From assembly GCA_017471965.1 (NCBI GenBank), contig JAFURF010000052.1, positions 1 through 63,755 of the forward strand: a DNA stretch of 63,755 nt, written 5' to 3'. Each line of letters begins with the position of its first letter. Position 1 is the first letter of the stretch. This DNA comes from Bacteroidales bacterium. GTDB taxonomy: Bacteria; Bacteroidota; Bacteroidia; Bacteroidales; UBA932. Shown here piece after piece: positions 3,028 to 39,597 of this stretch. A program made the translations under genes and the position numbers. The notes below the pieces were generated by a model. It was not told the DNA's origin and did no database searches. It saw nothing but the letters and a program-made list of their open reading frames with translations.

Positions 3028-3471
<444 letters not shown>

Positions 3472-3491: not shown

Positions 3492-3600
3492 TAAACATCC
3501 GACAGGCACTTTGCACCGGTGACCCCCGCCTCCCTCTCGGGAGGCACCCCCTGGCCGGGGGTGGCATGTCACCTATAGCAAAGTGCCTGTCGGATGTTTA
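3492..3600 (+). repeat. Nested hairpin with conserved GC-rich core, copy 1 (also a terminator candidate)
   Basis: Perfect 23-bp inverted arms (3492-3514 and 3578-3600) enclose a structured core. In order: ACC, a 6-bp helix GGTGAC/GTCACC, CCCC, a hairpin GCCTCCC-TCTC-GGGAGGC, a second hairpin ACCCCCTGGCCGGGGGT, GGCAT, then TATA before the right arm. The core recurs at 38101-38200 on the other strand with different arm sequences. It lies between the converging ends of ntpK and the minus-strand operon ending at 3619, so it can terminate either transcript. In both copies the core has the same orientation relative to the gene upstream (ntpK here, nfnB there). Confidence 0.9.
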
Positions 3601-38100: not shown

Positions 38101-38200
38101 ATAAAGACATCGGCTGATATTATAGAGGACATGCCACCCCCGGCCAGGGGGTGCCTGCGAAGCAGGCGGGGGTCCTCGGTATATCAGCCGATGTCTTTAT
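38101..38200 (-). repeat. Nested hairpin with conserved GC-rich core, copy 2
   Basis: Perfect 20-bp arms (38101-38120 and 38181-38200). Read on the minus strand the interior is ACC, GAGGAC, CCCC, hairpin GCCTGC-TTC-GCAGGC, hairpin ACCCCCTGGCCGGGGGT, GGCAT, GTCCTC, TATA: the same plan as 3492-3600, with identical single-stranded parts and altered but still paired helices. It lies 12 bases after the nfnB stop and upstream of the kdu control region. Confidence 0.9.
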
Positions 38201-38211
38201 CGTATGTATGG

Positions 38212-39597
38212 TCAGAGTGTCTGAACGTACTCGTGGATTGCCGCAGCAGCCTTTCGTCCTGCACCCATGGCAAGGATGACGGTCGCTGCACCTGTCACGG
38301 CATCTCCGCCGGCAAAGACTCCCTTGCGTGTAGTGGCACCGTTCTCATCTGCGACGAGACATCCGCGACGATTGGTTTCAAGACCGTCCGTAGTCCTGGC
38401 GATCAGAGGGTTTGGAGATGTTCCGAGGGACATGATGACTGTCTCTGTCTCGATCTCGAACTCCGACCCGGGAACTGCTACAGGGCTGCGGCGTCCGCTT
38501 TCATCCGGCTCACCGAGTTCCATCCTGATGCATTTAACGGCGCGGACCCAGCCTTTCTCGTCTCCAAGGATCTCCACAGGATTGGTCAGCATTGCGAACT
38601 CGATTCCCTCTTCCTTTGCATGATGCACTTCCTCACGGCGTGCAGGAAGTTCGGTCTCGGTACGACGGTATACAATAGTGGTCCCGGCTCCAAGTCTCAA
38701 AGCAGTCCTGGCTGCGTCCATGGCAACATTTCCGCCTCCAACGACAACCACCTTCTTACCGGCATGGATCGGAGTCTTGTAATCGTCCCTGTATGCCTTC
38801 ATAAGGTTGTTTCTTGTAAGGAACTCATTTGCAGAGAATACTCCGTTCAGGTTCTCGCCAGGGATTCCCATGAACTTAGGAAGTCCTGCACCTGACCCTA
38901 CGAATACGGCAGCGAATCCTTCCTCATCAAGAAGAGAATCGATGGTAACCGTCCTTCCGGCAATCACATTCGTCTCGATCTTCACGCCCAGAGCCTTTAC
39001 AGACTCTATCTCCGCTGCCACAACCTTGTCCTTCGGCAGACGGAACTCCGGAATACCATACTCCAGCACTCCTCCCGGACGGTGAAGCGCCTCGAAGATT
39101 GTCACTGCATATCCTAGTTTAGCAAGGTCTGAAGCGCAGGCAAGACCTGCAGGGCCGCTGCCGATGACTGCCACCTTATGACCGTTTGCAGGAGCCACGA
39201 CAGGCTTCACTCCACCATTCTCACGGCTCCAGTCCGCAACGAAACGCTCGAGTTTTCCGATTGCCACAGGCTCGCTCTTGATGCCAAGGATACAACTTCC
39301 CTCGCACTGCGTCTCCTGCGGGCAGACACGTCCGCAGATGGCTGGAAGGGATGAATCCTCCGCTATCACTGATGCAGCACCGGCAAAGTCGCCGGCTGCC
39401 ACCTGCGCGATGAACTGAGGGATCTTCACACTTACCGGACATGCCGCAACACATCTCGGGTTCTTGCAGTTGAGACATCTTGATGCCTCAAGCTGAGCCT
39501 CTTCCACATTATATCCGTAACATACTTCCTCGAAGTTGGTCGCACGTACTTTCGGGTCCTGTTCTCTGACAGGAACTCTTGGAATCCTGTTTGCCAT
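38212..39597 (-). CDS. nfnB: NfnB/GltA-type NADPH-binding flavoprotein subunit
   Basis: 461 residues of the glutamate synthase small-subunit-like family. N-terminal cysteine clusters (CLNCKNPRCVAACP, then CGRVCPQETQCEGSC) bind two [4Fe-4S] clusters; the FAD loop VIGSGPAGLACASDL and NADPH loop VVVGGGNVAMDAARTALRLGA follow. With NfnA it forms the NADH-dependent ferredoxin:NADP+ oxidoreductase, which bifurcates electrons between NADH/ferredoxin and NADPH. It overlaps the nfnA stop by one base. Automatic annotations often call it glutamate synthase, but no large subunit is nearby. Confidence 0.93.
   Translation of the reverse strand: MANRIPRVPVREQDPKVRATNFEEVCYGYNVEEAQLEASRCLNCKNPRCVAACPVSVKIPQFIAQVAAGDFAGAASVIAEDSSLPAICGRVCPQETQCEGSCILGIKSEPVAIGKLERFVADWSRENGGVKPVVAPANGHKVAVIGSGPAGLACASDLAKLGYAVTIFEALHRPGGVLEYGIPEFRLPKDKVVAAEIESVKALGVKIETNVIAGRTVTIDSLLDEEGFAAVFVGSGAGLPKFMGIPGENLNGVFSANEFLTRNNLMKAYRDDYKTPIHAGKKVVVVGGGNVAMDAARTALRLGAGTTIVYRRTETELPARREEVHHAKEEGIEFAMLTNPVEILGDEKGWVRAVKCIRMELGEPDESGRRSPVAVPGSEFEIETETVIMSLGTSPNPLIARTTDGLETNRRGCLVADENGATTRKGVFAGGDAVTGAATVILAMGAGRKAAAAIHEYVQTL

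Follow-up and report, generated by a model that had tools for sequence, protein, structure and literature searches.

The window analysed here, i.e., the whole stretch of 63,755 nt, carries two intergenic palindromes, each lying at the 3' end of a gene. In both copies an arm is followed by an ACC linker, the first half of a 6-bp helix, a variable hairpin, the invariant hairpin ACCCCCTGGCCGGGGGT, GGCAT, the second half of the helix, TATA and the opposite arm; this shared plan, which an earlier note had read from the two sites, was confirmed exactly as described. The arms are perfectly paired, over 23 bp in copy 1 and 20 bp in copy 2. Copy 1 lies on the + strand, 20 nt beyond the end of the stop codon of V-type ATP synthase subunit K (atpK; 3052..3471, + strand; assigned to the best model under its curated cut-off). 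Based on the sequence and a fold test, its 23-nt left arm (3492..3514) pairs perfectly with the right arm (3578..3600), and the core (3515..3573), which is additionally defined by covariation, starts with the ACC linker and contains the 6-bp helix GGTGAC/GTCACC (3518-3523 with 3568-3573). Between the halves of this helix come CC, CC/GG pairs, the two hairpins (variable, 3528-3545; invariant, 3546-3562), GG and CAT, and the TATA linker occupies 3574..3577. The core of copy 2 is on the - strand. By the same sequence and fold evidence, its arm on the 3' side of the core is at 38101..38120, the linkers and core are at 38121..38180 and the arm on the 5' side is at 38181..38200, with the 6-bp helix at 38125-38130 and 38172-38177, the invariant hairpin at 38136-38152 and the variable hairpin at 38153-38167. 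The gene whose 3' end abuts copy 2 encodes an NADPH-dependent glutamate synthase (38212..39597, - strand; TIGR01316 above cut-off).

When compared with dinucleotide shuffles, the folds had z-scores of -10.9 (copy 1) and -9.3 (copy 2), and none of 200 shuffles folded as well. In an alignment of 21 related copies, 84% of cells were paired under the structure given above, and both sides had changed at 18 of 30 pairs. The covariation score was equalled by none of 500 shuffles and the count of further pair types by 15 of 500. The invariant hairpin was constant in the 21 copies, and the 6-bp helix, the first hairpin and the arms covaried, so that the observation that helices differ yet stay paired holds beyond the two original sites. 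Pairing of the arm helix amounted to 59.5% of cells; this value is low because the linker length varies among copies and the alignment fixes a single one. No Rfam family matched at the gathering threshold across the 63,755-nt window, in agreement with the view that this structured element was undescribed. The matches below threshold were to microRNA and lncRNA models only, and we took them as chance hits on a long hairpin.

A search for further copies with a core pattern and a covariance model built from 21 copies revealed a multicopy family. The core was found at 15 places in the same genome (up to 3 mismatches; none for a reversed-pattern control), and the covariance model matched 22. Among 300 sampled genomes of the same genus, 35 contained the core (up to 2 mismatches; own genome included), with 1-24 copies each; of the good assemblies in this sample, 9 of 118 had it. 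At the order level it was detected in 1 of 393 genomes, this one being the genome under study, and at the family level 3 of 149 genomes in all had the element. Two genomes of another genus in the family (L039, L040) have a single diverged copy, at the same locus in both, and the L040 copy is directly 5' of the start of a gene whose protein opens with MKYIGAHVSAAGGVENA. Nineteen stretches of Bacteroidales MAGs contained exact core matches, and 16 of their titles give a host, which is water buffalo, sheep, water deer or yak. Viral contigs gave no exact match to a 23-base pattern, and the best plasmid match had an E value of 0.9, which we took as chance. One candidate with long perfect flanks (L005, at the end of contig G000:C73) was set aside as an assembly artefact, since a fold-back copy of the flanking sequence around the element forms the contig end. 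In addition, the genome under study holds a second, more diverged subfamily, with the core GGGGGAGGGGCCC in L058-L060 and variants in L056 and L061; L058 occupies a second loop of murB.

We analyzed the position of 121 listed copies, a count that includes a few orthologous duplicates, relative to genes predicted with a purpose-made codon-usage caller. Thirty-eight copies were between convergent genes, 52 between co-directional genes and one between divergent genes, 14 had one neighbour unknown and 16 were in genes; the caller missed the in-gene copies L076 and L085, and its in-gene call for L158 is doubtful. Intervals between divergent genes thus held 1 of 91 copies, with about 18 expected from intergenic length (binomial p 5e-8, copies treated as independent). 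Of 23 copies in co-directional regions that have 80 nt or more to the next start, 20 were nearer the upstream stop codon. The proposed association with gene ends was therefore borne out, the element being concentrated at gene 3' ends. A constant orientation relative to the upstream gene, noted at the two sites, is true of copies 1 and 2 and fails for the family, in which co-directional copies split 35 to 17 and in-gene copies 12 to 4. L002 and L016, from genomes ~97% identical, have the same flanks at the copy 2 locus but the core in opposite orientations, and the element can therefore flip in place, unless one of the assemblies is wrong. A T-tract beside the arms was slightly commoner than expected, with TTTT on either side of 25 of 105 copies against a background of 102 of 1120 per single window. 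From this count and those of REP tags, arm composition, wobble pairs and reading frames, ten loci were left out (L005 as an artefact; L010, L015, L016, L019, L022, L023, L077, L114 and L128 as the same locus as another copy), together with repeat fetches of own-genome copies. The atpK 3' regions of relatives were considered as possible empty sites and rejected as too diverged. At the atpK terminator position of another species (L182) we observed a long stem that encloses another GC-rich core, one containing CCCTAGTCCGGG; one pattern for such nested hairpins matched none of 325 loci, which says little, as its spacer misses L182 too.

The copies within genes were found in prmC, murB, argC, hemW, aroK, truB, an RluA-family gene, apbE and sufD. 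NCBIfam models identified hemW, murB, prmC, argC and truB above cut-off, and the shikimate kinase, RluA-family, ApbE and SufD assignments are under curated cut-offs. These in-frame copies sit in unrelated housekeeping genes, in both orientations and in several frames. In a test that demanded coding flanks and open frames up to the core only, the copy was in frame and stop-free on the coding strand at seven of seven loci; the score threshold missed others such as prmC, and two of the nine rows were opposite-strand shadows, one of them out of frame. In different species, the same prmC loop is occupied in L020, L079 and L136, with a remnant in the genome under study (L034), and the same murB loop in L024, L088, L139 and L223. 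First hairpins of copies in the same loop differ between genomes and, in prmC, the copies have opposite orientations, which points to repeated independent insertion at these loops. The sufD insertion is common to two species, with imperfect arms in both. Other in-frame repeats, coding for CHSERSE- or CEEQSDVVI-like peptides, were noted in the murB loops of L222, L223, L088 and L139; by eye they resemble CGTC-tagged repeats, and the same loops receive several families. Similarly, a second GC-rich in-frame insert (PLAAGGGACSEGAGGVVFHTAAAGGA) follows the first in the truB gene of L117 and is possibly another palindromic family.

Arm sequences are largely specific to each locus. Outside the linkers the arms had a median of 19 Watson-Crick pairs, although from ~9 nt beyond the core outwards the positional composition did not exceed ~0.3 bit. 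Among 5460 pairs of copies, a stretch of at least 10 nt of left arm was shared by only 12. Swapping arms between copies destroyed the match, with a score of at least 12 in 105 of 126 true pairs and in 9 of 630 swapped pairs. Some copies share arms (L001, L007 and L033; two L017 copies; L013 and L142), and part of the arm therefore travels with the element.

The origin of the remaining arm sequence was approached through sites that are occupied in one genome and empty in another. Between dut and murF, the relative L018 carries an insert of 109-110 bp, whereas the genome under study has a 1-nt junction without a stem; the flanks are 95% and 85% identical. The insert comprises the core and ~12 nt of inner arm, followed by TTAAAGTCTGTC, the inverse of the host sequence GACAGGACTTTAA with one gap, and the 15 nt beyond TTAAAGTCTGTC partly continue the inverted match; the complete match spans 22 nt, with 18 matches, 3 mismatches and 1 gap. 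No direct duplication was detected at dut-murF, the single site resolved in this way. In murB of L139, the left arm codes for EAVSAS and aligns with DAVAAS of the empty orthologue L225; the right arm is absent from L225 and is the inverse of the left arm over 16 nt with one mismatch. Weaker cases are hemW (L135 versus the empty L193), with an inverted copy of 11 nt and one mismatch, and argC (L126 versus the empty L284 and L285), with one of 8 nt. Only dut-murF was resolved at the nucleotide level; the other three were compared through protein alignment with orthologues 77-85% identical. In gene sense, the 5' side holds the template at each of the four loci, and the hemW core is oppositely oriented. 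When the inverted matches were scored unanchored, 19, 7, 77, 118 and 126 of 2000 random windows, drawn from a pool that contains element copies, scored as high, the last value being for a second murB site (L223); taken singly and without an anchor, the matches are thus modest. Anchored at the inner-arm end, with anchors picked after inspection of the sequences, 0, 1, 12 and 36 of 20000 random windows were as good for dut-murF, murB, hemW and argC, respectively. The prmC sites leave the host arm ambiguous. Judged from these alignments, one outer arm appears to be host sequence and the other an inverted copy of it, absent from the empty site, at four loci; host-templated inverted copying would explain why the arms are perfect and yet unique to each locus. 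The multiplicity in one genome, the patchy presence in the genus and the empty site opposite an occupied relative support that the element is mobile, which upholds this part of the REP-like idea of the earlier note.

The mismatches within the arms may carry information on the folding strand. On the strand on which the core was first read, the arms of 99 copies had 68 A.C and 21 G.T mismatches, an A.C being a G.T on the other strand; by copy, 39 leaned one way, 8 the other and 52 were tied. In the interval 6-13 nt from the inner end, A.C exceeded G.T by 48 to 4, and further out the counts were 15 to 15, with distance bins set after viewing the data and copies with weak arm alignment dropped, and the bias was weak between convergent genes (14 to 11). 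Since this wobble bias suggests folding of the complementary strand, the folding strand is probably the complement of the one on which the core was first read. We read the inner arm as element-borne, with its complementary strand structured, and the outer arm as host-derived sequence free of this constraint; a mutational asymmetry could also produce such a pattern. RNA selection on the originally read strand was considered as the cause of the arms and rejected, because G.U pairs are rarer there than A.C.

We consider it the most probable explanation, with moderate confidence, that the two sites are copies of a small, non-autonomous palindrome that is mobile in one Bacteroidales genus and whose outer stem is made by fold-back copying of host DNA. 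The mobile unit would consist of the folded core of ~60-75 nt and roughly 10-18 nt of inner arm. A single-stranded hairpin may be joined to a host 3' end, and its own end would then prime fold-back synthesis along the adjacent host strand. By this, ~8-20 nt of host DNA would be copied in inverted form as the outer stem, and some filler would be left; the fold-back, the single-stranded intermediate and the order of these events are inferred. The locus-specific arms and the strand bias of the wobble pairs are consistent with this scheme. Insertions would survive immediately past stop codons or, within housekeeping enzymes, at tolerant loops and in frame, and the in-gene copies, whose frames are open, would be read as part of the protein. 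The broader proposal of a class of mobile hairpins that build their own stem, i.e., an inverted target duplication by fold-back, with the complementary strand acting as a structured RNA or single-stranded DNA intermediate, is more tentative, and we put it at somewhat below an even chance.

Two rival explanations also involve a mobile hairpin, and we regard both as unlikely. The whole hairpin, with both arms, might move to host stretches that happen to be complementary to one arm, so that a guided insertion would mimic a copied arm. A few copies do have common arms, and a match of ~11-12 nt is expected by chance at this genome size, which makes targeting by complementarity numerically possible; against this, almost every arm is unique (12 of 5460 pairs, as given above) and the arm of L018 occurs in no other locus among those compared. 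A similarly low probability is assigned to a REP/RAYT-type system, in which a Y1 (HUH) transposase would move the palindrome as single-stranded DNA and the arms would follow from that chemistry. The 3'-end location and the presence of some in-gene copies fit the REP behaviour reported in the consulted part of PMC3733652, and Y1_Tnp was detected in all 18 genomes with the element that were sampled and in 15 of 20 without it (Fisher p=0.048), these being hand-picked from 35 and 265, respectively, with the element-free ones more complete. However, a copy lay beside none of the eight Y1 loci examined, the element is several times the length of a REP and there is no fixed tag: when 105 copies were scanned over the element plus 12 nt, 20 contained GTAG and 34 contained CGTC at any position. 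The Y1/RAYT link to the element is weak, and the partner transposase envisaged in the earlier note was not established.

Mobility into terminators and immobility are both very improbable. According to the former, the element enters the loops of pre-existing terminator hairpins, whose old stems become the arms, as had been suspected from the first two sites. Most intergenic copies indeed lie no more than a few tens of nucleotides from a stop codon, and by eye several relatives have apparent ordinary terminator hairpins after atpK, but the second arm is absent at the resolved empty site, where the 1-nt dut-murF junction has no stem, and at the three empty in-gene sites in murB, hemW and argC. 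Four sites thus contradict this reading, T-tracts are enriched only slightly, and targeting of terminator stems is unsupported because the empty sites lack a stem or second arm. Equally improbable is a host regulatory or processing RNA kept at 3' ends for its function and immobile. The strong structure and covariation, the 3'-end location and the wobble bias on one strand are compatible with such an RNA, whereas its patchiness within the genus, the in-frame copies in unrelated enzymes in both orientations, the empty site in a close relative and the inversion between L002 and L016 speak against it; the present evidence largely contradicts it.

If the stem is host-templated, as in the fold-back explanation that we prefer, the mode of insertion is one not named in the literature passages compared, and it would account for perfect arms of unrelated sequence. 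The family of in-frame palindromes is patchy across a gut Bacteroidales genus and enters murB, prmC, argC and other housekeeping genes, and, with so many sites either occupied or empty, the mechanism can be tested by comparison of close strains. Among the open-access papers listed for this subject, no title or opening abstract described such a Bacteroidales element or an inverted target duplication.

We compared the element with known systems. Like the MITEs Correia/NEMIS, ERIC and RUP, it is a small non-autonomous palindromic repeat that is sometimes coding; most MITEs have family-specific terminal inverted repeats and direct target duplications, according to the excerpt of PMC2229807, whereas the Bacteroidales element has no conserved terminal inverted repeats (~0.3 bit or less beyond ~9 nt) and, at the one resolved site, no direct target-site duplication. 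REP elements favour 3' ends and lie for the most part in convergent or co-directional intervals, with some copies in genes (PMC3733652, consulted part). The Bacteroidales element shares this preference and its in-gene copies, and its 3'-end location is therefore not new. It differs in being ~100 bp long without a fixed tag or an adjacent copy at any of eight Y1 loci, as opposed to 20-40 bp with a fixed tag. The three Bacteroidota genomes in the REP surveys covered by the excerpt of PMC12306157 belong, by name, to other genera. Long perfect inverted repeats within functional genes, as in the Bacteroidales copies, are also found in nematomorph mitochondria, where template switching was proposed; there, both arms encode conserved protein, and a conserved mobile core is not mentioned in the passages compared (PMC6649704).

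The resemblance to Rickettsia palindromic elements (RPE), which were compared by description, concerns a ~100 bp hairpin that is multicopy and in frame within conserved genes. Protein-coding palindromes have reportedly been found in Wolbachia. RPE are palindromes of 105-146 bp, present in many copies both between genes and in frame in conserved enzymes, and in the excerpts of PMC2229807 and PMC10969869 frequent in-frame palindromes are described chiefly for Rickettsia. The Bacteroidales element belongs to a different phylum and has a two-hairpin core with an invariant hairpin; furthermore, its outer stem of locus-specific host sequence and an inverted copy is not mentioned for RPE in these excerpts (PMC2229807, PMC10969869). 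By analogy, we file the element as a putative protein-coding palindromic repeat, RPE-like in copy number and in-frame insertion.
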